Source: Candidatus Rokuibacteriota bacterium (GTDB taxonomy: Bacteria > Methylomirabilota > Methylomirabilia > Rokubacteriales > CSP1-6). From it: 64,000 nt of DNA. Both the position numbers and the translations under genes were made by a program. Below, piece by piece: positions 26,358-37,432 of the stretch. Within the stretch, counting starts at the first letter, position 1. Each line of letters opens with the position of its first letter. Location of the stretch: assembly GCA_016188005.1 (NCBI GenBank), contig JACPIQ010000083.1, forward strand, positions 1-64,000, in the 5' to 3' direction. The notes beneath the pieces are model-generated. The model ran no database searches. It worked only from the letters and a program-made list of their open reading frames with translations, and had not been told where the DNA came from.

Positions 26358-27377
26358 TCATGCGGGCGGGACTGTCTCTGCCGCCGGGTGGAAGACCGGG
26401 AGGACGTGCCCGGCCATGAGCTCCATCGAGCGCAGCACCTGCCGGTGCGGCAGCCCGCCGAAGTTGGCGATGGCGAGGAAGTGGGTGAAACCCGCCGCCT
26501 CATAGCGGCGCGCCACGCGGACGACCTCGTCGGGGTCGCCGAATGCCACCACGTCCTGCGCCACGAGGGTGTCGAACGGGCGCTGCACCGCGTACAGGCG
26601 TGTCCGCACGTAGCGCTCCATGGGCTCCCGCGCCTCGGCCCGCGCCCCGGCCGTGCTCTCCGCGCAGTGGCAGTGGAAGCCGAACGGCACCGTCGCCTCC
26701 TCCGGGCGGCCGCCGGCCCGCACGTAGGCCTCCTTGTAGGCGGCGACGCCCGCCCGCATCTCCTCGAGCGTCTCCGCGCTCGCGTACGGGATGAGCATCA
26801 CCGGCAGCCCCCTGGCGCCGATGCGCACCGCGGTGTCGGCCCGGAGGGTGGCGATCCACAGGGGGGGCCGCGGTGTCTGGAGCGGCAGTACGTTGAGCCG
26901 CACGTCCTCGACGCGGTGGAACTTCCCGGCATAGGAGAAGCGCTCGCCCGTCCAGGCGCGGAGCAACACCTCCAGGGCCTCGTCGAAACGCTCCCGCCTC
27001 TCCTCGAGGGGGAGCCCGAAGCCCGCGTACTCGTGCCGGAGGTATCCCGCCCCGACGCCGAGGTTGAGCCGCCCGCCGGAGAGCACGTCGACCATGGCAT
27101 AGTCCTCGGCGGTGCGGAGCGGGTTGTCAAAGGGCAGGACGACCACGGCCGACCCGAGGCGGATCCGCCGCGTGCGCTCGGCGGCGGCGGCCAGCCACAC
27201 CGGCGGGCGCGGGATGGCCCCATACTCGTGGAAGTGGTGCTCCGCAATCCAGAAGGAGTCGAAGCCGAGGGCGTCGGCCGCCTCCGCCTGGTCGAGCAAC
27301 TCGCCGTAGAGCTCGCTCGCGCGGCGCCTCAGCTCCTCCGGATAGTGATCCGCGACGGAGAAGATGCCGACCCGCAT
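26358..27377 (-). CDS. LLM-class flavin-dependent oxidoreductase
   Basis: A 339-residue luciferase-like protein with the full pattern: DSFWIAEHHFHEYGAIP, TRRIRLGSAVVVLPFDNPLR, DVLSGGRLNLGVGAGY, and the C-terminal FGDPDEVVRVARRYEAAGFTHF. The EHH-F-EYG signature is typical of bacterial-luciferase-type monooxygenases. Its ATG shares a base with the stop of the homogentisate dioxygenase-like gene (TGATG at 27377-27379), so the two are translationally coupled and probably act in one pathway. The frame stays open upstream through that gene, but only as a shadow. Confidence 0.9.
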   Translation of the reverse strand: MRVGIFSVADHYPEELRRRASELYGELLDQAEAADALGFDSFWIAEHHFHEYGAIPRPPVWLAAAAERTRRIRLGSAVVVLPFDNPLRTAEDYAMVDVLSGGRLNLGVGAGYLRHEYAGFGLPLEERRERFDEALEVLLRAWTGERFSYAGKFHRVEDVRLNVLPLQTPRPPLWIATLRADTAVRIGARGLPVMLIPYASAETLEEMRAGVAAYKEAYVRAGGRPEEATVPFGFHCHCAESTAGARAEAREPMERYVRTRLYAVQRPFDTLVAQDVVAFGDPDEVVRVARRYEAAGFTHFLAIANFGGLPHRQVLRSMELMAGHVLPVFHPAAETVPPA

Positions 27378-28684
27378 CACTGGCCGTCCTCGTACTCGGG
27401 GACGATGGGCCGCACGCTGTCCCGCTCCCCGGCCAGGCGGTCGGCCACAAGCCTCACCTCCCGGAGCCGCGTCTCGCTGAAGCGGAAGCGCGGCTCCCTG
27501 GCGTAGGCCGCCCAGCTCCGCATGTAGTCCGCGTCGCTCAGGCCCAGCGCCACGTCCGAGATCCGCGCCGGGGTGGCGAAGTCCGCCATGATCCCGACCT
27601 CCTCGAAGGAGTCGGGACGCCGCCCGTCCAGGAAGGCCTCGAGCGCCGGCGGATGAGGCCCGTGAGGCAACCCCACCGGGTGCACCGACACCATGCCCTC
27701 GCGGAAGACGCCACCCCGGCTGAAGAAGTCGCCGAAGTGGTAGGCGATGGTCTCGAGGTAGTCCAGGTTCTTGTGGAAGAAGGGGATCCACATCCCCTCC
27801 TTCTCCACGGAGCGGACGGTGAAGACGCAGAGATAGCAGCCGGGCAGGATGAACACCGTGTGGCCCGAGGGCGGCACGTGGGAGCGGTCGGCGCAGAGCG
27901 GCCGCACGTCCTCCACGGCGAGCTTGTAGGGCAGGTAGCTGCCGCGCCAGCCCACCGCGTCGAAGGGATGCGTCGGGTGGACGCGGCGCGTGTAGGCGGC
28001 GTCCACCTTGGAGACGACCTCGAAGCGCCCCGCCTCGTTGCGCGTCTCGAGCGACAGCGGAAAGCGGTAGTCGCTGCGGCTGTGGGTGATGAACTGCCCG
28101 GTGGTGGGGGCCTCGGCCTTGTCGGGGTCGCCGGCGAAGCTCTCGTACATCCAGTAGTACTGGGGCCCCGCCCCGAGCTCGAAGCGGTGGGTGATCCCCT
28201 TGGGCACGACGAGGAAATCGCCCTTCGTGTAGGCCACGGGGCCGAACGTCGTCTCGAGGGTGCCGGCGCCCTGGTGGACGAAGTAGACCAGCGTGGCCGA
28301 GTGGTGCTCGAAGAAGTAGTCCATGGATGCCCGGGGCGCCGTGACGTTCATCGCCACCGTGGCGTTGGCCACGAGGCGGGCCATCCCGCGATAGACGTCG
28401 CGCGGCGCGGCGGGCGCCATCACCTCGAGCGCGTGGTGGACCCCGCCGAGGGGGCGCAGGGGGGAGTCCCAGTCGGGCGCGAAGGCGCCGGCCGGAAGCT
28501 GCCGCGTCTCGCCGGGCAGCCAGTTGCTGGGCGGGTAGAGGTGATAGGTGTGGCTGACCTTGCCCGCGAAGCCGCCACGGCCGTGCTCCTGCTCGTAGAC
28601 ATGCCGGAGCAGCGAGCCCGCATGCGGCGCGCGGGGCACGATCCCGACCTCGGGAATGCCGCTGAAGTACTCGAACGTCCCCAT
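27377..28684 (-). CDS. Homogentisate 1,2-dioxygenase-like cupin
   Basis: A 435-residue protein related to homogentisate dioxygenase, which opens homogentisate to maleylacetoacetate with non-heme iron. Candidate iron ligands lie in PFFHKNLDYLE and the following HPVGLPHGPHP, the equivalents of His335/Glu341/His371 of the human enzyme. The His-to-Glu spacing is one residue longer than in classical enzymes, so this is a divergent subgroup and its substrate may differ. GGGAGG stands before the start at 28684; the frame opens 26 codons earlier without signal. Coupled to the LLM oxidoreductase behind it. Confidence 0.85.
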   Translation of the reverse strand: MGTFEYFSGIPEVGIVPRAPHAGSLLRHVYEQEHGRGGFAGKVSHTYHLYPPSNWLPGETRQLPAGAFAPDWDSPLRPLGGVHHALEVMAPAAPRDVYRGMARLVANATVAMNVTAPRASMDYFFEHHSATLVYFVHQGAGTLETTFGPVAYTKGDFLVVPKGITHRFELGAGPQYYWMYESFAGDPDKAEAPTTGQFITHSRSDYRFPLSLETRNEAGRFEVVSKVDAAYTRRVHPTHPFDAVGWRGSYLPYKLAVEDVRPLCADRSHVPPSGHTVFILPGCYLCVFTVRSVEKEGMWIPFFHKNLDYLETIAYHFGDFFSRGGVFREGMVSVHPVGLPHGPHPPALEAFLDGRRPDSFEEVGIMADFATPARISDVALGLSDADYMRSWAAYAREPRFRFSETRLREVRLVADRLAGERDSVRPIVPEYEDGQ

Positions 28685-28755: not shown

Positions 28756-30444
28756 CTAGCAAGACCGGACCGAGCTGTCAACGGCCGGGGGGCCACCGGG
28801 GGGCCGGGGGGCGCTGTCCGCCACCTCGAGCAGCGTCGCCCCCACGTCGGCCATCACCGTGACGGTGGCCAGATCGTCGTGCGGCGTCGGCGTCGCGTTG
28901 ATGATCGCCACGGGAATGCCGGCCTCGGACGCCCACCGGAGCAGATCGGACACGGGCGCCACGGCCAGTGAGGTCCCGAGCACCAGCCACAGGTCGGAGG
29001 CCAGCAGGGCCCGGAGCGCGGCATCCAGGCGCTCGGGGGCCACTGGCTCCCCGAACAGCACGCCGCCGCCCTTGAGGAGCCCCTGACAGCGCTCGCAGTA
29101 GAGGGTGCCGGGGCCAGCGGCGATCCGCTCGCTGAGCAGGCCGCGGGGCACCGCGTGCCCGCAGTCGAGGCACCGCGCCCCGTGGATGTTGCCGTGGATC
29201 TCGATCACCCGATCTGGAGGGACGCCGGCCGCCTGGTGCAGACCATCCACGTTCTGCGTGACGACGGCCGAGAGGCGGCCCTGGCGGTGGAGCGCTGCGA
29301 CGGCGTGGTGGGCCGCCGCAGGGCCGGCGCGCTGGACCAGACGGAAGAAGCGCTCCTCCTGGCGCCAGTACTCCGCGCGCGCCTCTGCCGAGGCGAGGAA
29401 GTCCGCGAGGGTGACCCGGCGCTGTGACTGGCCGAGCCCGAAGGCGCCGCGCACGTCAGGCAGGCCCGTTTCCGTGCTCACGCCGGCGCCGGTCAGCACG
29501 CCGATCCGCCTGGCCCGGCGGACCAAGTCGAGCAGCGTCCGGCGGGACAGCCAGGCGGCGCGACTCCGCTCCGCACTCGTGATGCTCTCGAGCGGCAGGG
29601 GTGCCGGGCAGCCGGGGAGCCATCGGCGGAGCGCGTGAACCCGGAGCACGGCCAGGACCGCGAGCGTGACGAGATTGAACGGAGCCACCAGGGGTGGCAG
29701 CCACGCGGGAGCGACGGACAGAGCGCCCCACCAGAGGCCGCCCGCCGCTGCCGCCCCGAGCCCGGCCACGAGCAGGGAGATCCCGGTGAACGGCAGATAC
29801 ACGGCGCCCAGCGCCATCGCCGTCGGGACGGTGTTGGCGATCAGGCCGGGCTCGATCGCCACGCCCAGGAGCAGGCTCATCGCCACGCCGCAGAGCGCGC
29901 CCAGCAGGCCGGCAAGCGCGAGGAGCCGCGAGTGGGCGACCAGGCCCAGGAAGAGAGCGGTCCAGCCGAGGAGCTCCCAGCCCACCGCCAGGTGTGGCGC
30001 TCCGGTCGCACGGCCGAGAAGGGGAGCGGTGAGCCAGACGAGGACCAGGGCAGGGAGCGCCAGCGTCGGGATCTGTCTCGGCATGAAGAGCCGGTAGGCC
30101 AGGCGCGTGAGCGGGGCCGACGCGGCAGCGGCGGCGACGAGGCCGGCCCACGTGGCAGGCCCGGGCTCGAAGAGCACGCCCCAGTAGAGGCCGACCAGGA
30201 CACCGGCATATGCGTACAGCCCGCTGCGCCACGGCCGTCGCGGGTAGCCGCGCGCCAGGGCCACCAGGGTGGCCGCCGCGCCCCCCACCGCGCCCATGCC
30301 CGTCGCGCGCGGGGCGAGCAAGGCGAAGCCCACGAGGAAGGCGAGGCCGCTCAGGGCCGAGGCACAGAAGAACACCTGCCCGTGGGCTGCGGCCCATGCG
30401 CCAGCCGCTGCGGGGGCGCCCCGTGCGACGCCGAGGAGCGTCAC
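28756..30444 (-). CDS. Urea-transporter-like membrane domain fused to a SIR2 deacylase
   Basis: A 562-residue two-domain protein. Residues 20-270 are about ten hydrophobic helices resembling UT-family urea channels: HGQVFFCASALSGLAFL, RSGLYAYAGVLVGLYWG, and a second repeat ending LPPLVAPFNLVT. The UT signature LPxxTxPF has diverged in both halves (IPTLALPA near 125-132; LPPLVAPF at 249-256). Residues 300-545 form a sirtuin: GAGVSTETG (319-327), TQNVDGLH (396-403), catalytic His417 in EIHGN, zinc Cys425/428/450/453, and LGTSLAVAP. It starts with GTG overlapping the decarboxylase stop (GTGA). Last gene of the sigma-54 operon. The fusion is visible; its function is not known. Confidence 0.85.
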   Translation of the reverse strand: MTLLGVARGAPAAAGAWAAAHGQVFFCASALSGLAFLVGFALLAPRATGMGAVGGAAATLVALARGYPRRPWRSGLYAYAGVLVGLYWGVLFEPGPATWAGLVAAAAASAPLTRLAYRLFMPRQIPTLALPALVLVWLTAPLLGRATGAPHLAVGWELLGWTALFLGLVAHSRLLALAGLLGALCGVAMSLLLGVAIEPGLIANTVPTAMALGAVYLPFTGISLLVAGLGAAAAGGLWWGALSVAPAWLPPLVAPFNLVTLAVLAVLRVHALRRWLPGCPAPLPLESITSAERSRAAWLSRRTLLDLVRRARRIGVLTGAGVSTETGLPDVRGAFGLGQSQRRVTLADFLASAEARAEYWRQEERFFRLVQRAGPAAAHHAVAALHRQGRLSAVVTQNVDGLHQAAGVPPDRVIEIHGNIHGARCLDCGHAVPRGLLSERIAAGPGTLYCERCQGLLKGGGVLFGEPVAPERLDAALRALLASDLWLVLGTSLAVAPVSDLLRWASEAGIPVAIINATPTPHDDLATVTVMADVGATLLEVADSAPRPPGGPPAVDSSVRSC

Positions 30445-31859
30445 GGCCTCCGACGAGGCCTGGTCGACAGCGGCCCGAGCCTCGGCGGGAGCCGGTCCCG
30501 GCCCACGAAGTGCTCCAGGGACTCGGCCTCGCGGAGGAGATCGGCGCGTCCAGCCGACACCAGCACCACGGCCGGCCGCGGCTGGATGAACTGCAGCGAC
30601 TGGGAATCCGTGTAGGCGCCGCAATTCTTGACCACCAGCAGCACGCCGCGCCGCAGCGGAGGCAGGCGAAGCCCCGAGCCCAGGCAGTCCACCTGCATGC
30701 AGAGGGGGCCGAACAGCGTCACGTCCTCCACGGACAAGGGCGTGGTCTCGGTGGGGGCGATGTCGAGCAGGGAGTAGTAGGCCGTGGGCAGCAGGTGGAC
30801 GCCGGCGTCGAGCACCGCAGCCTTGGCACCGCCCGGCAGGCGCTTGACCGCCGCGACCGTCGTGAGCAGGAACACAGGGTGCTCCACGACGGCCCGGCCG
30901 GGCTCGAGCACGAGCTTCGGCGGGCTGGCAAGGCGCCGGAGCGCTGACGCGAGCGGCTTCGCGATGGCCCCCGCAAAGGCCGGGAACACGTCGTCTGGCG
31001 ATGTGCCCGGACGGCCGCGCGCATAACGGTGCCGGTTGGGGAAGCCGCCGCCCAGGTCCAGCATCTCCCAGCGGACGCCGTGGCGCTGCTCGAGCTTGGC
31101 CATCAGCGGGATGACCAGGGCCAGCAGGTCTCTGAACACTTCAGGCCTCGGCAGATCGGTGCCAAGGTGGATGTGGAGCCCGGCCAGCCTGAGGGACGCG
31201 GACTCCGCCACACGACGCGCCGCCTCCTCCGCCAGCCCCGCCTCCAGGCTGAAGCCGAACTTCTCCCAGGGCGTCTCCGTGACCGCGACGGCCAGCCGGA
31301 GGCCGATGGCGGGCGTGCGGCCCATCTCGCCAGCGACGCGCTCGAGGGCCGTGAGCTCGTCGAAGTTGTCGACGTTGATCCACGCGCCCGCCTTGACGGC
31401 GCGGCGAAGGTCCTCGTCGGTCTTGTAAGGACCGTTGAAGATCGTGCGCTCGCCGGGCACGCCGAGCTGCTCGGCCATGTCGTGCTCGAGCCCCGAGACC
31501 ACCTCGGCCCACGCCCCTTCCTCGTGCAGGATCGCGCGGATGCCCGTGAGGTAGTTCGTCTTGTACGAGTACGCCACCTCGGTGTGGGGGTACACCTGGC
31601 GGAACGCGGCGCGGAAGGCCCGGAACTCCTCGCGCAGCCGTGCTTCCGCAACGACGAAGAGCGGGGAGCCGAACTGGCGCGCCAGCGCGCGCACGTCACA
31701 GCCGTCGAGGCTGTCCACCACGCTCGTCGGCACGAGCGGGGCCCGGGTGTTGAGCGCGGCTCCGGAGTACTTGCTGATCGCGCCGAAGGTGTGGCGCGTG
31801 AGCCCCATGGGCTCATAGGGCCGCTTCCGGCTCGGCCGTGAGGATCCCCTAGCCGACAT
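30441..31859 (-). CDS. Fold-type III PLP decarboxylase (DAP/ornithine decarboxylase-like)
   Basis: A 472-residue alanine racemase-fold decarboxylase. The PLP Lys is Lys100 in AYSYKTN. Further motifs are GLHIHLGTDL, the glycine-rich LDLGGGFPN, LEPGRAVVEH, and the C-terminal NCGAYTDSQS with the Cys and Tyr used by DAP decarboxylases. Relatives act on free amino acids or on carrier-bound ones (BtrK-like), so the substrate is open. The ATG at 31859 was chosen because GGAGGG precedes it; it overlaps the upstream stop by 11 bases. Met at 31808 is an alternative. Third enzyme of the sigma-54 operon. Confidence 0.9.
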   Translation of the reverse strand: MSARGSSRPSRKRPYEPMGLTRHTFGAISKYSGAALNTRAPLVPTSVVDSLDGCDVRALARQFGSPLFVVAEARLREEFRAFRAAFRQVYPHTEVAYSYKTNYLTGIRAILHEEGAWAEVVSGLEHDMAEQLGVPGERTIFNGPYKTDEDLRRAVKAGAWINVDNFDELTALERVAGEMGRTPAIGLRLAVAVTETPWEKFGFSLEAGLAEEAARRVAESASLRLAGLHIHLGTDLPRPEVFRDLLALVIPLMAKLEQRHGVRWEMLDLGGGFPNRHRYARGRPGTSPDDVFPAFAGAIAKPLASALRRLASPPKLVLEPGRAVVEHPVFLLTTVAAVKRLPGGAKAAVLDAGVHLLPTAYYSLLDIAPTETTPLSVEDVTLFGPLCMQVDCLGSGLRLPPLRRGVLLVVKNCGAYTDSQSLQFIQPRPAVVLVSAGRADLLREAESLEHFVGRDRLPPRLGPLSTRPRRRP

Positions 31860-33984
31860 GGCCGCCGACCCTCCCTTCCACCGCCAGGGTCGCCATCCGG
31901 TCGATCGGAGAGGTCGCGTCCCAGGCCATCCGCACGTAGAAGCTCTTCGGGCGGGCCTCGAGGGAGACGACACGCTCGCCGCGAGCCAGCCGCACGGCGG
32001 CCCAGGGCAGGTTGGCGCCGGCGCCAGCCGAGAGGTAGACCCAGCCGGGGAAGCGCGGGTTCACCTCGATGAGGAACGCGCCGCGCCGCGGATGGCGGAT
32101 CACCTCGAGCTCGAAGGGGCCGACCCAGGCGAGCGCCTCGGCAAACCGGTCGGCCAGGCCCTTGAGCCGGCGGTCACTCACGACAGAGCCGCCCCACGTG
32201 TTGCCGTTCAGCGTGCGGATCTCCTTTCGCACCACCACCGCGCCCACCACGCGATGGCGTCGGTCCGCCACGGCGGCGATGCCGAACTCCTCGCCGTCGA
32301 CGTATTCCTGGGCGATCAGGGGAAAATTCCACGTGGCGGCCAGCCGCCGCGCCATGACCCGCGCCTCTGCCGGCGATCTCACGACCCGGGCGTCGGCCAG
32401 CGGGCCCTTGAGGACGAAGGTCGCCCCCAGCTCCTTGGCGGCGTCCGGCAGATCGTCGAAGCCCGCGATGGACATCGCGCGCGGCAGCCGGAACTTGCGC
32501 GCGGCGAGCGCCGGCAGCCGCGGCTTGGAGGCCGCGGCCAGCGCGTCGGCCGTCGGGACGAGCGCCGCCACGCCCGCGGAGGCCAGGCGAGGCACGAGCC
32601 AGGACACGAGTGGGATCTCGATGTCCAGCGTGGGCAGCAGGCAGTCCACACCCGCGGCGCGGCATTGCTCGACGAGCGCATCCGGATATCCGCCCTCCTC
32701 CCGCGACGGGAAGGGCAGCAGGCGCACCTCGTCCCAGAGCCCGTCCACGTAGGCGCCAGTCGCCAGCACCTCATGGGTCAGGCCCACCAGTCCTGGCGGC
32801 GGGGATGCCAGCCGCAGCGAGCGGGCCACCGTCAGGCCGGGAGAGGGGTTGTCCGAGGCGTTGAGGCCCGTGATGGCGACACGCCCCGACCGCGCGAGGG
32901 CGCCCTTCGCGGCCCCGGGCGCCGCAGGCGCCCCGGCCGGCCGCAGCAACCCGACCCGCACCTGCCGCCCGTCGAGGCAGGCGAGCGGGTTACCCGCGAA
33001 GACGTGCTCGGCGACCACCCGCGCGAACAGCCACCCCGGCCTGGCTCCGAGCGATTCGCCGTCGTCACCCAGGGCCAGACGCACCAGCAGGGCGGGGAGG
33101 TTGGCATCCGCGTCCGCAGCCAGCGCGATCCAGGACGGGAACCGCGGATTGATCTCGAAACAGTAGGCGCGACCGTCGGGCGAGCGGATGAACTCGGCCT
33201 CCAGGCCGCCGTCCCAGCGGAGGGCGCGCACGAGGCGGCGCGTCTCCGCCACGAGCCCCGGCTCCTCCACCGTGACACCCGCCCAGGCGGTGCCCTTGTT
33301 CGTGACCGACAGCTTCTTCATGACGGCGACACCGAGCAGCTCACCGCGCCGGGCAACCACGGCCACGTCGTACTCCTCGCCGTGGACGAGAGGCTGCGCC
33401 AGCAACGGGTACCCCCACTGCGCGGCCAGCTCCGTGCCCGCCACGCGGAACTCCTCGACCGAGTGCGCCACCGCCGAGTCGACCAGGGCGCCCTTGAGCA
33501 CCTGAGGGTAGCGGAGGCGGGCGGCGGCGCGCCAGACGGCATCGGCCGAGCCCAGCACTTCCGTCTCCGGCGTCGCCACCCCCGCTCGCCGGGCCAGCGC
33601 CGCCAGGCGCGCCTTCGCGCAGGCGTGGAGGGCACCTGTCGAGGGCAGGCAACTGCGGACGCCCAGGCGCCGCAGCGTCCCCCGCAGCCTCGCGTAGTGA
33701 TCGAGCTCGCCGTCGAGCGTCGGGATCACGACGTCCAGCGGGTGGCGGCGGACGATGGCGGCCAGCCGTGCAGCCAGCGGCCCACGCCCGGCCCACGGCG
33801 AGGGGACGAGGGCGTGGGCATCGACGAGGTCGGGGGCGAAGGCGCCCGTCACGAGCCGGTCCGGGATCAACGCCAGGATGCGCCACGACGGATCGGCCCG
33901 GCGGAGCGCGCGGATCACCGCCAGCCCCGGGTGAGGGTTGTCCGTGGCATGCAGTCCGGTGACGCCGATCCAGGTCTCACCCAT
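31849..33984 (-). CDS. Tandem (duplicated) ATP-grasp protein
   Basis: A 711-residue protein consisting of two homologous halves. Each half starts with a pre-ATP-grasp Rossmann segment (GVTGLHATDNPHPGLAV at 7-23; AITGLNASDNPSPGLTV at 370-386) and ends with the magnesium/ATP loop (EINPRFPSW 277-285; EVNPRFPGW 640-648). Both active sites look intact. The layout recalls carbamoyl-phosphate synthase, but there is no glutaminase or allosteric domain. Such enzymes join an acyl phosphate to an amine or other nucleophile. The start at 33984 overlaps the PqqD-like gene by eight bases. Product unknown. Confidence 0.9.
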   Translation of the reverse strand: MGETWIGVTGLHATDNPHPGLAVIRALRRADPSWRILALIPDRLVTGAFAPDLVDAHALVPSPWAGRGPLAARLAAIVRRHPLDVVIPTLDGELDHYARLRGTLRRLGVRSCLPSTGALHACAKARLAALARRAGVATPETEVLGSADAVWRAAARLRYPQVLKGALVDSAVAHSVEEFRVAGTELAAQWGYPLLAQPLVHGEEYDVAVVARRGELLGVAVMKKLSVTNKGTAWAGVTVEEPGLVAETRRLVRALRWDGGLEAEFIRSPDGRAYCFEINPRFPSWIALAADADANLPALLVRLALGDDGESLGARPGWLFARVVAEHVFAGNPLACLDGRQVRVGLLRPAGAPAAPGAAKGALARSGRVAITGLNASDNPSPGLTVARSLRLASPPPGLVGLTHEVLATGAYVDGLWDEVRLLPFPSREEGGYPDALVEQCRAAGVDCLLPTLDIEIPLVSWLVPRLASAGVAALVPTADALAAASKPRLPALAARKFRLPRAMSIAGFDDLPDAAKELGATFVLKGPLADARVVRSPAEARVMARRLAATWNFPLIAQEYVDGEEFGIAAVADRRHRVVGAVVVRKEIRTLNGNTWGGSVVSDRRLKGLADRFAEALAWVGPFELEVIRHPRRGAFLIEVNPRFPGWVYLSAGAGANLPWAAVRLARGERVVSLEARPKSFYVRMAWDATSPIDRMATLAVEGRVGGHVG

Positions 33985-34261
33985 CGACGCTGGCCAGCCC
34001 TTCCTCGACGAGCTGGGCGACGAAGCGAGCCAGGTCCGCACGGACCGTCTCCAGATCCACCTCGAAGGCCTCCAGGACAGCGGCGATGACGTCCTGGGTC
34101 GCCGCGCCCTCGCTCAGCCGGAAGGACGCCAGCGCCGCCGAGCCGTTCAGGGAGTACACCCTGCCGGTGCGCTGATCGAAGAGAAAGCCGCGCTCGGGCC
34201 CGACCTTGAGCGTCACCGACTCCGCGAAGCGGACGGATGGCGGCAGGCCCCCGCCGGCCAT
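33977..34261 (-). CDS. PqqD-like protein (possible peptide-recognition element)
   Basis: A 94-residue protein with the PqqD winged-helix pattern: a beta-strand start, GFLFDQRTGRVYSLNGSAAL, then a helical half with VDLETVRADLARFVAQLVEEGL. PqqD and related RRE domains hold a precursor peptide for modifying enzymes, though some members stand alone without a known partner. The start shares a base with the upstream TPR stop (TGATG), and its end overlaps the ATP-grasp gene. No radical SAM partner and no precursor peptide gene was found beside it. Confidence 0.85.
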   Translation of the reverse strand: MAGGGLPPSVRFAESVTLKVGPERGFLFDQRTGRVYSLNGSAALASFRLSEGAATQDVIAAVLEAFEVDLETVRADLARFVAQLVEEGLASVDG

Positions 34262-35619
34262 CACTTCGCCGCCTTTCCCAGCGCCTGCAGGCCCTGCAAC
34301 GCGTCGGGGTAGTCCCGCTCCGCCTGGAGGCTCCGGCGGAAGAAGGGTTCCGCCTCCGCTCGTTTCCCGAGCTTGAGCGAGGTCCAGCCGAGACCGCTCC
34401 ACGGATCCGGCCAGTCGGGATGACGCTGCGTGACCTCCCTGAATTGCTGGAGCGCCCCCGCGAGATCCCCCGAGTAGTAGAGGCTCCAGGCCAGCGTGGA
34501 GGCCGCGTTGCTCAGGATCGGGTGGAGCCTCGAGGTCCCGGGGATCTCGACCTGCTCGCGCACGGGTGGCAGCGTCACGCCGGAGGCCAGCGAGCGCCGC
34601 AGCGGAGCCACGGCATCGCGGTGGCGCTTCAGCGCGTAGCGCGCGTATCCCAGACCTCGCAGCCCGTCGGCGTCGCTCGCATGCCTGGCCAGGAGCCTCT
34701 CGAACTCGGCCTCCGCCTCGGCGAAAGCGCGCTGGTGATAGAGGCTCCACCCGAGCTCTCGCCAGAGGTCGAGCCACGCAGGGCGCGCGGCGAGCAGCGT
34801 CTTCAGATCGGGAGTCGTCACGTAGCGGGCGGACTTCGTCATCGCGGCGCGGAAGTGGGCTTTCGCCTCCTCCGGCCGTCCCTGGCGCTCGGCGACCCAG
34901 GCCAGCCCGGCCAGCGGATCCGCCCAAGTCGGTTCTCTGCGGGCGACGTCGACGAAGACAGGGCGGGCCTTCGCGTAGTCGCCCTTGTAGTAGTACGTCC
35001 ACCCCAGAGCGGAGCGGGCCAAGGTATCCCGCTCGTTCCGGCGCAGCACGGCCTGGAAGCGCTCGATGGCCTTGTCCCACTGGCCACGGTGATAGGCGAC
35101 GAAGCCGAGCCCCCGGCGCGCGTCAGGCTCGTCGGGGACGCGATCGAGCGCCTCCTTGAAGCTCGCCTCGGCACGCAGCAGATCGCGCTTGCCCAGATAG
35201 CTCCAGCCGAGGCCGGTATGGGAGTTCGGGTATCCCGGGGACCGCCTGAGCGACTCCGAGAAGGCCGCGATGGCGCGGTCGTGCTCGCCGGACTTGTACG
35301 CGATCCAGCCGAGGCCCTCATGCGCGTAGAAGGCGTTCGGGTCGGCGGGATTCATGCGCAGGGAGCGTTCGAACTCGGCCCGCGCCTGCGCGAGATTGCC
35401 TTTCCTGTACCGCGCCCACCCGAGCAGGGTCCGGACGCGGGCGGAGTCGCCCCCCTCCCGGATCGTCTGGTCCAGGCGCGCGATGGCGCCATCGTAGTCC
35501 TGGCGCTCGAATGCGATGACCGCCAGGTCGAACTGGGCCTGGGCGATGACGGTGCCACACCCCAGCGTGATCGCCAGCGCCAGCACGATGATCCCGGGTG
35601 CGGGCGTTCTCCGTCTCAC
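34261..35619 (-). CDS. Secreted or membrane-anchored TPR-repeat protein
   Basis: A 452-residue protein with a signal-like N-terminus (VRRRTPAPGIIVLALAITLG, residues 1-20) followed by about ten TPR units, for example ARTLLGWARYRKGNLAQARAE-type repeats with the GxGW variant recurring (GLGWIAY, GLGWSYL, ALGWTYY). It would act as a periplasmic scaffold. GTG at 35619 is chosen because the basic residues then start the signal peptide and GAGG lies eight bases upstream; the frame opens to a GTG at 35700. First gene of the sigma-54 operon. Confidence 0.82.
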   Translation of the reverse strand: MRRRTPAPGIIVLALAITLGCGTVIAQAQFDLAVIAFERQDYDGAIARLDQTIREGGDSARVRTLLGWARYRKGNLAQARAEFERSLRMNPADPNAFYAHEGLGWIAYKSGEHDRAIAAFSESLRRSPGYPNSHTGLGWSYLGKRDLLRAEASFKEALDRVPDEPDARRGLGFVAYHRGQWDKAIERFQAVLRRNERDTLARSALGWTYYYKGDYAKARPVFVDVARREPTWADPLAGLAWVAERQGRPEEAKAHFRAAMTKSARYVTTPDLKTLLAARPAWLDLWRELGWSLYHQRAFAEAEAEFERLLARHASDADGLRGLGYARYALKRHRDAVAPLRRSLASGVTLPPVREQVEIPGTSRLHPILSNAASTLAWSLYYSGDLAGALQQFREVTQRHPDWPDPWSGLGWTSLKLGKRAEAEPFFRRSLQAERDYPDALQGLQALGKAAK

Positions 35620-35744
35620 GTCCTTGACCTCAGCGGTGCTCGGGGCTTTCCCCGCCGCGTGACGGGGCTCTGTGGCGCTCCCAACTTCCCCGACGTGCAC
35701 ACTGCACTGTCCGGTGGCGTCCCGAGGCGTCTGGCGCCCATGCT

Positions 35745-35761
35745 AGCAAGGGATGTGCCAA
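35745..35761 (-). promoter_or_regulatory. Sigma-54 (-24/-12) promoter of the TPR/PqqD/ATP-grasp operon
   Basis: On the minus strand the sequence TTGGCACATCCCTTGCT matches the sigma-54 consensus TTGGCACN5TTGCW at every defined base. GG and GC have the required ten-base spacing. Predicted transcription starts near 35734, about 115 bases before the first gene. Sigma-54 promoters need an AAA+ activator, so the operon should be tightly regulated; no activator gene lies in the window. Confidence 0.75.
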
Positions 35762-35992: not shown

Positions 35993-37432
35993 ATGAGGCG
36001 ACGGTCCCTTTCCCTCAGCCGCACCTTCGCCCTCATGAGCCTCGTCATCATCGGGCTGATCACGGCGCTCCAGGTGGTGGTCCAGTGGACTCTCCTCCGT
36101 GACGACCTCCTCGAGTGGGAGCGGACGGTGAGCGCCGACGCCATCCGCACGGAGGCCTACTCGCTCCTGCGCGCCGACGATTTCCGCGATTGGCGGAACC
36201 CCGTCACCCAGGAGCGTTTCGACCGCGTCTTCCGCCGGGCGCTGGGCCGTCTGGAAATCCGACGCATCAAGCTGTACGACCCCGACATGCGCGTCATCTG
36301 GTCGGACGAGGCTCGCCTGGTGGGCATCCGCTTCCCCGGCAACGCCGGGCTCGCCGAGGCGCTACGCGGGTCGGCGGTCGCCCGCCTCGAGCGCGCGCGG
36401 CAGGCGGAGAATCTCTATGAGTGGCACTTCACGGAGAGCGTCGAGCTCTACGTCCCTCTCTCCTTCTCCCCAGGTGCCACGCCGGGCACCGCCAGCATCG
36501 TCGGCGTCGTCGAGGTCTACAAGAACCCCGCACCGGCGCTCGCGAACCTGTGGCGCGACCGCTGGACCATCGTCATCACGTCACTGGCGGGAGCCGTGCT
36601 CCTGTACGCCGTTCTGTTCGGGATGGTGCATCGCGCCTCGCGGCAGCTCGAGGTGCAGCGCCGGAACCTCGAGCGTCAGGCCATCGCGCTCAGCGGCGCC
36701 AACCTGGAGCTACGCGAGGCGCAGAAACAGCTCCGGGCGGCCGAGCGGCTTGCAGCCATCGGCGAGGTGAGCGCAGCGGTCGCCCACGGAATCCGCAACC
36801 CGCTCGCCAACATCCGCGCTGCGGCGCAGGTCGCGCTCGACCGCGTGATCGACCGCGCGGTCACGGAGAAGTATCTCGCCAGCATCATGGCCGAGGTGGA
36901 CCGGCTGGGGCGCTGGCTCCGAGCCCTGCTCGACTCGGTCCGCCCGTTCGAGCTGAGGGCGGCGAGCATGGATCTCGGCGCCGTGCTGGAGGAAGTGCTC
37001 TCCCTCCTGGGCGAACGCATCGCCAGCCGGCAGGTCACGGTGGAGCGCCACCTGGCTCCTGATCTTCCCCGGTTGGTGGCTGACGAGGTCCAGCTCCAGC
37101 AGGCCTTCCTCGGGGTGCTGGAGAACGCGGTGGACGCGCTGTCCGCCGGCGGTGTGCTGCGGGTGCAGGCGGAACGCCTGGTCCGCGATGGCCAGTCGTG
37201 GGTCCGGGTGACGATCCAGGACACGGGCGAAGGTATTCCGCAGGAGCGGCTCGGGCACATCTTCGAGCCCTTCTACACGACCAAGAACCACGGCACGGGG
37301 CTCGGCCTGGCCATTACACGGCGGGTCGTGGAAGGCCACGGGGGTTCGGTAGAGGTCGAGAGCAAGCGCGGGGTCGGGACCACGGTCCTGATCACTCTGC
37401 CGGTCGAGAGCGGGCCGCCGCCGGGGTCATGA
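35993..37432 (+). CDS. Membrane sensor histidine kinase (NtrB/AtoS-like)
   Basis: A 479-residue kinase. A transmembrane helix at about 10-32 and another at about 192-213 enclose a periplasmic sensor region. A coiled segment leads to the H-box AAVAHGIRNPL with phospho-acceptor His265. The ATP-binding domain has the N-box (FLGVLENAVDAL), DTGEGIP, FEPFYTTKNHGTGLGLAI. This HisKA/HATPase type is usual for partners of sigma-54 activators. No response regulator is adjacent. It diverges from the sigma-54 operon and its last bases overlap the MmgE/PrpD pseudogene (shared TCATGA at 37427-37432). Confidence 0.92.
   Translation: MRRRSLSLSRTFALMSLVIIGLITALQVVVQWTLLRDDLLEWERTVSADAIRTEAYSLLRADDFRDWRNPVTQERFDRVFRRALGRLEIRRIKLYDPDMRVIWSDEARLVGIRFPGNAGLAEALRGSAVARLERARQAENLYEWHFTESVELYVPLSFSPGATPGTASIVGVVEVYKNPAPALANLWRDRWTIVITSLAGAVLLYAVLFGMVHRASRQLEVQRRNLERQAIALSGANLELREAQKQLRAAERLAAIGEVSAAVAHGIRNPLANIRAAAQVALDRVIDRAVTEKYLASIMAEVDRLGRWLRALLDSVRPFELRAASMDLGAVLEEVLSLLGERIASRQVTVERHLAPDLPRLVADEVQLQQAFLGVLENAVDALSAGGVLRVQAERLVRDGQSWVRVTIQDTGEGIPQERLGHIFEPFYTTKNHGTGLGLAITRRVVEGHGGSVEVESKRGVGTTVLITLPVESGPPPGS

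Follow-up and report, generated by a model that had tools for sequence, protein, structure and literature searches.

Several described systems share parts with the locus reported here. The butirosin module pairs the decarboxylase BtrK with the ATP-grasp ligase BtrJ. The related enzymes FigC, SbnH, AcsE, MccE and BtrK use conjugated amino acids as substrates, not free polyamine precursors (PMC7857480). In ribosomally synthesized and post-translationally modified peptide (RiPP) pathways, discrete lasso-type RiPP recognition elements (RREs) bind a [Y/W]xxPx[L/V/I/F/A] motif (PMC13381572; also PMC12710340). We analyzed a window of DNA from Candidatus Rokuibacteriota bacterium (GCA_016188005.1, contig JACPIQ010000083.1, positions 1-64,000 of the forward strand). 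It holds a cassette of five genes, encoding a TPR protein, a PqqD-like protein, a tandem ATP-grasp ligase, a pyridoxal phosphate (PLP) decarboxylase and a UT-fold channel fused to a SIR2 domain. It is close to certain that the five genes form one functional unit, which we rate as a new system made of known parts.

Gene order of the cassette

The GTDB genomes were scanned with an alignment of the decarboxylase, yielding 287 related stretches. Locus counts refer to the best 80 of these, with three relatives added where the total is 83, and since only the best 80 of 287 were kept, the frequencies may lean toward close relatives. The order TPR, PqqD, ATP-grasp, decarboxylase, UT and SIR2 recurs in nearly all of the best 80 loci. 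Its hosts span at least 13 phyla and range from Pelagibacter to planctomycetes of groundwater, so the cassette must do something useful. The hosts belong to the Planctomycetota, Omnitrophota, Chloroflexota, Armatimonadota, Bacteroidota, Desulfobacterota and Rokubacteria, and to the Calditrichota, Neomarinimicrobiota, Nitrospirota, Nitrospinota, Oligoflexia and Pseudomonadota. Clustered with the decarboxylase in the 83 loci were ATP-grasp genes (77), UT or UT-SIR2 (71), PqqD (59) and TPR (41, about half). In 67 of 78 loci an ATP-grasp gene immediately precedes the decarboxylase. Immediately downstream stands UT, UT-SIR2 or SIR2 in 59 of 78, the remainder being mostly contig edges.

The same genome contains a second cassette (L014) with the same gene order, as do four relatives (L015, L016, L017 and L018), and the L015 orthologue of the window TPR protein is 60% identical. 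A first-pass annotation of the window had proposed that the five genes serve one pathway, and this is borne out by the conserved order: homologues in the loci examined are not scattered but show strong synteny. The limits of the open reading frames (ORFs) agree with its description of five minus-strand genes overlapping by 1, 8, 11 and 4 bases. Pfam likewise confirms every one of its domain calls (TPR, PqqD, ATP-grasp, decarboxylase, UT and SIR2; Table 1).

Within its own phylum the decarboxylase signature was found in only 6 of 95 genomes; the cassette is therefore patchy there. A GTDB scan with the window ATP-grasp protein as a single query gave no matches. A plasmid search returned matches with no more than 34% identity, most of them bearing the annotation diaminopimelate decarboxylase. 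One further locus with a lone ATP-grasp (L019) was set aside as an unrelated context.

Table 1. Features of the window operon and its upstream region.
Feature	Positions	Strand	Evidence or remark
Sigma-54 (-24/-12) promoter-like site TGGCACATCCCTTGCT	35745-35760	minus	upstream of operon
TPR protein	34261-35619	minus	GTG start, signal peptide, ~9 TPRs; exported; Pfam TPR_2 4.8e-49
PqqD-like protein, lasso-type RRE subfamily	33977-34261	minus	Pfam PF05402 (PqqD) 7.5e-13
Tandem ATP-grasp ligase	31849-33984	minus	Pfam ATPgrasp_Ter 2.5e-23, ATP-grasp_3
ATP-grasp domain 1	~32932-33984	minus	E(I/V)NPRF metal-binding motif
ATP-grasp domain 2	~31849-32931	minus	E(I/V)NPRF metal-binding motif
Alanine-racemase-fold PLP decarboxylase, conjugated-amino-acid type (FigC-like)	30441-31859	minus	Pfam Orn_Arg_deC_N 6e-33
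Decarboxylase N-terminal tail (~residues 1-30), candidate PqqD docking site	31770-31859	minus	degenerate motif YEPMGLTRHTFGAISKYSG
UT-SIR2 fusion gene	28756-30444	minus	
UT-fold membrane channel domain	29574-30444	minus	Pfam UT 6e-29
SIR2 NAD-dependent deacylase domain, predicted	28756-29573	minus	Pfam SIR2 2.6e-34
Divergent sensor histidine kinase	35993-37432	plus	NCBIfam AtoS/ZraS-like

The decarboxylase and its N-terminal tail

The call of an amino-acid decarboxylase in the first-pass annotation is sound for the PLP decarboxylase fold, but the motifs point to conjugated rather than free amino acids. In a search of the PDB, the best match of the family profile was the N-citrylornithine decarboxylase FigC (7kh2; 3e-86, 292.8 bits), with diaminopimelate decarboxylases and BtrK ranking lower. 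The cassette enzymes share the GP.CMQ.D sequence (a C-M-Q-x-D loop) with FigC and retain the Lys, His, GGG, E.GR and Cys catalytic residues of the FigC/FslC fold. The proposed citrate contacts of FigC, H357 and R387, are V/I and Q/N in the cassette family, so its conjugate differs from that of FigC; the FslC model scored 197 bits against a cut-off of 500. Assignment to LysA, the diaminopimelate decarboxylase, was rejected: its C-E-S/G-x-D loop and RP..Y helix are replaced by C-M-Q-V-D and L-P-T-A-Y, and the lysA model reached 226 bits against a cut-off of 298. By its motifs, the enzyme resembles the conjugated-amino-acid subfamily and not the free diaminopimelate or ornithine type.

The likeness to FigC, which acts in rhizoferrin synthesis and has this CMQ loop too, raises the option of a metallophore or siderophore-like amide made by citrate-type condensation, with the ATP-grasps in place of an NRPS-independent siderophore (NIS) synthetase. 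Outer-membrane barrels adjoin some cassettes, as this option would favor, but the replaced citrate contacts, and the lack of any NIS synthetase or TonB receptor family among the recurring genes, make it quite improbable.

The decarboxylases of the family begin with an extension of ~30-45 residues, over most of which none of the PDB matches listed aligns. Of the 83 decarboxylases, 79 carry a [YW]xxPx[ILV] motif in this tail; among other ORFs it occurs in 28 of 1836 (1.5%), and hardly any of the other cassette proteins has it. There are four exceptions. One (L047) lies at a contig edge and belongs to the planctomycete clade; the others (L073, L097 and L099) are solitary decarboxylases accompanied by no PqqD, ATP-grasp or UT gene, and their tail motif is absent. 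In the decarboxylase tree, L073 branches within the Rokubacterial cassette clade. This protein (L073 9917-11278) has lost the tail and contains the sequence GALCMQDD, and its neighbor resembles, by eye, a menaquinone-pathway enzyme. The tail motif is WEEPTL in L015 and YERPLI in the second copy of the window's own genome.

The best NCBIfam match of the PqqD-like protein was lasso_PqqD_Strm in 10 of 10 proteins tested, all below the 70-bit cut-off, including that of the window (1.4e-13). The first-pass suggestion of a peptide-recognition protein fits this likeness to lasso RREs, but the probable ligand is the decarboxylase tail instead of a precursor peptide. Judged from these sequences, the PqqD-like protein most likely docks the decarboxylase to the ligase. 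A role as carrier protein was discarded, there being no conserved nucleophile or attachment residue and no conserved C-terminus. The small precursor peptide or carrier gene for which the first-pass annotation had advised looking near homologous loci does not recur: no small ORF with the motif was recurrent near the 83 loci, unlinked precursors lying outside this search, and the recurring cassette genes include no carrier-protein gene.

These observations bear on an ordinary RiPP pathway, in which the PqqD-like protein would be a normal RRE, an unlinked precursor would be modified by the decarboxylase and ATP-grasp, and the tail would mimic or compete with the leader. We consider this unlikely. 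The protein does fall in the lasso RRE group, and MccE, of the same enzyme family as the decarboxylase, decarboxylates a peptide-nucleotide; but no motif-bearing small ORF recurs near the cassettes, the genes lie too close together for one to fit inside the cassette, and neither a lasso B2 protease nor a C cyclase family recurs. The AsnB homologue of L016 scores as an asparagine synthase.

Ligases, channel and alternative hydrolases

The ATP-grasps are nearest to carbamoyl-phosphate-synthase-like proteins, and the nearest solved structure to the window tandem protein is 2pn1. An E-x-N motif is present in both domains of the window protein (alignment A4) and of most fused tandem forms. Where the ATP-grasps are separate genes, the second copy mostly lacks it and, because this metal-binding motif is lost, is probably a non-catalytic partner. 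Second copies of this kind are L014 5116-6225, L020 8947-9993, L029 9033-9980 and L036 8852-9982.

Two architectures were distinguished. In 44 loci, including the window, SIR2 is fused to UT or follows it; these loci mostly carry two ATP-grasps and have a TPR protein as the exported partner. A fusion of UT with an M23-type metallopeptidase (Pfam M23, 1e-11 to 1e-16) marks 23 loci; these have a single ATP-grasp, and PqqD is often preceded by the gene of a small exported Ig-like protein. No locus holds both SIR2 and M23, and a single change separates the two types on the decarboxylase tree. SIR2 and the M23-type domain are alternative C-terminal amide hydrolases on UT. Known UT proteins have both termini in the cytosol, and the UT-M23 linker contains no additional transmembrane segment; both hydrolases should therefore face the cytosol. 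The M23 domain is predicted to be cytosolic in L041 10503-12533, L028 11959-14169 and L069 11325-13460, the second of which also has a weak DUF3108-like end. One Ig-like protein (L046 8182-8607) and 14 homologues form a small exported family without a Pfam match above cut-off, modeled as Ig-like with a predicted local distance difference test score (pLDDT) of 92 and, in many M23-type cassettes, encoded a short distance upstream of PqqD. A structure search with this small secreted sandwich protein gave no informative match.

Some SIR2-type cassettes carry further additions: a fused GNAT in L014, L017, L018 and L030; a GNAT together with a NadE-like enzyme in the betaproteobacterial cassettes; and elsewhere an asparagine synthase (L016, L075 and L094) or an O-methyltransferase. 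Downstream of the asparagine synthase, L016 2974-4782 (the same as L094 8511-10319) combines a partial UT domain with TPR repeats.

The AlphaFold model of the UT-SIR2 protein (mean pLDDT 87, predicted template-modeling score 0.80) shows helices in its membrane half, and its SIR2 half matches solved sirtuins (Foldseek, E ~1e-17). The window SIR2 keeps GAG.S, QNVD.LH, HG and four zinc cysteines; the motif residues are invariant in alignment A5 and present in 38-41 of 46 SIR2 ORFs. On this motif set (GAG.S, QN.D, HG and four Cys) the domain is predicted to be a sirtuin deacylase. The UT family profile matches the urea channel dvUT (3k3f) at 2.7e-61. A urea-selective pore has Gln/Glu ends and two mid-pore Thr residues. 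The window UT keeps the Gln of the first-repeat GQVFF but is missing the second-repeat Glu segment, and it has Ala and Val where dvUT has its two mid-pore Thr residues. Thus, of the proposed fusion of urea channel and sirtuin, the UT fold and the SIR2 domain stand (Pfam and model), but the pore lacks several residues characteristic of urea channels, and the label "urea channel" is safe for the fold and not for the substrate.

The pore also bears on a carbamoyl or ureido pathway, in which the carbamoyl-phosphate-synthase-like tandem ATP-grasp would carbamoylate a diamino acid, the decarboxylase would yield a ureido-amine and UT would move this urea-like solute. UT folds pass urea-like solutes, and the kinship of the ATP-grasps also fits, but M23-type cassettes have a single ATP-grasp, many SIR2-type cassettes have a degenerate second one, and the mid-pore Thr residues are replaced in the window. 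We regard this pathway as very unlikely.

Control, proposed route and related systems

The first-pass annotation placed the operon behind one clear sigma-54 promoter. TGGCACATCCCTTGCT is the sole exact sigma-54 match in the 64 kb on both strands (shuffle expectation 0.02) and lies ~125 bases 5' of the TPR start. The site is thus present at the window operon but is a local feature and not a property of the whole system; a comparable site was found in only a few other loci, and general sigma-54 control of the cassettes was rejected as unsupported beyond these. NtrC-type regulators adjoin the Rokubacterial cassettes L014, L015, L017, L018 and L030, plus two others. The divergent kinase possibly controls the window operon. 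It has no response regulator beside it; the homologous kinase of L015 is accompanied by an NtrC-type regulator, absent at the window locus, and in the window's own genome such a regulator (L014 135-1478) adjoins the second cassette. Downstream of the operon, window 27377-28684 has a weak homogentisate dioxygenase match (1.4e-14, far below cut-off), and none of the recurring cassette genes observed corresponds to it.

TPR, decarboxylase and sigma-54 two-component genes, with alginate-export-like barrels by some cassettes, recall XrtA/PEP-CTERM exopolysaccharide loci, and the cassette could be an envelope accessory operon whose amines decorate an exported polymer. That reading is highly improbable: against the XrtA cut-offs the TPR protein scored 117 of 312 bits, the decarboxylase 99 of 478, the kinase 96 of 300 and the regulator of the second copy 360 of 503, and no glycosyltransferase family was among the recurring clusters inspected.

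The cassette probably makes a small amine-containing molecule, and its contents fit the first-pass idea that it could make and move a small molecule derived from an amino acid. We tentatively propose the following route, which we hold to be possible at somewhat below even chances. The RRE-like PqqD protein would bind the decarboxylase tail and dock the decarboxylase onto the ATP-grasp ligase. The ligase would form an amide from an amino acid whose alpha-amino and carboxyl groups stay free, and the decarboxylase would act on the amide conjugate, as in the BtrJ/BtrK or FigA/FigC pairs. SIR2 or the M23 hydrolase, at the cytosolic face of the channel, would then cleave the amide, and the freed small molecule would exit through the UT pore. 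Beyond the inner membrane, the exported TPR or Ig-like protein would handle the product, joined in some lineages by outer-membrane barrels.

Several points weigh against this route. The window tail has a degenerate motif, YEPMGL in YEPMGLTRHTFGAISK, with Pro displaced by one position, and docking is suggested by the motif and co-occurrence only. Passage of the product through UT is likewise a supposition, and the substrates of SIR2 may be proteins and not the product. Domains of the M23 type usually reside in the periplasm. The "double ligase" of the first-pass annotation describes the window, where both domains keep the metal motif, but is not general across cassettes, since the motif of the second ATP-grasp is lost in many SIR2-type loci.

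Alternatively, the tail might serve as both leader and carrier: the PqqD-like protein would bind the YxxP motif and present the Lys at +15 from it, the ATP-grasp would load an amino acid onto this Lys through the side chain of the amino acid, the tail-bearing enzyme itself would decarboxylate it in place, and SIR2, as an N-epsilon-acyl-lysine hydrolase, or M23 would release the product into the UT pore. In its favor, 54 of 79 tails have Lys at +15, compared with 6% overall, and the chemistry of SIR2 fits. It is weakened because one planctomycete clade keeps SIR2 but has Arg at +15, and a few other tails contain no lysine at all. We judge it improbable, and keep the docking route as our proposal.

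The first-pass annotation knew of no characterized pathway with this gene set, and none turned up. The literature searched contained no description of the cassette; subscription journals were mostly outside its coverage and a published account could exist. We call the system new because no tested family fits: no RiPP precursor, carrier or NIS synthetase recurs, and the XrtA cut-offs were missed. Generic names of the parts (diaminopimelate decarboxylase, urea transporter, NAD-dependent deacetylase) are misleading. If tail docking is true, an RRE would assemble enzymes instead of picking a precursor peptide, and a solute channel would be linked to a fused amide hydrolase acting as a release gate.

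Comparison with the nearest described systems indicates what is shared and what is particular. With butirosin BtrI/BtrJ/BtrK, the cassette shares an ATP-grasp and an alanine-racemase-fold decarboxylase acting on a side-chain-tethered amino acid (BtrK: PMC7857480), but it is without the acyl carrier protein, oxygenase and transferase and has the RRE-like PqqD and UT-hydrolase. Francisella FigA/FigC (FslA/FslC) of rhizoferrin synthesis provides the nearest solved decarboxylase and the CMQ loop, whereas the cassette has no NIS synthetase and changed citrate-contacting residues. XrtA/PEP-CTERM loci have TPR, PLP decarboxylase and sigma-54 two-component genes in common with it, though all cassette members fall below the curated cut-offs and the neighbors differ. 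The lasso B1 protein (RRE) and leader share the PqqD subfamily and the [YW]xxPx[ILV] recognition motif, which in the cassette, lacking the B2 protease and C cyclase, is on an enzyme instead of a precursor. Finally, the urea channels dvUT and UT-A/B match the cassette UT over the full length of the fold, whereas the cassette UT has several pore residues replaced and is fused to SIR2 or an M23-type peptidase.

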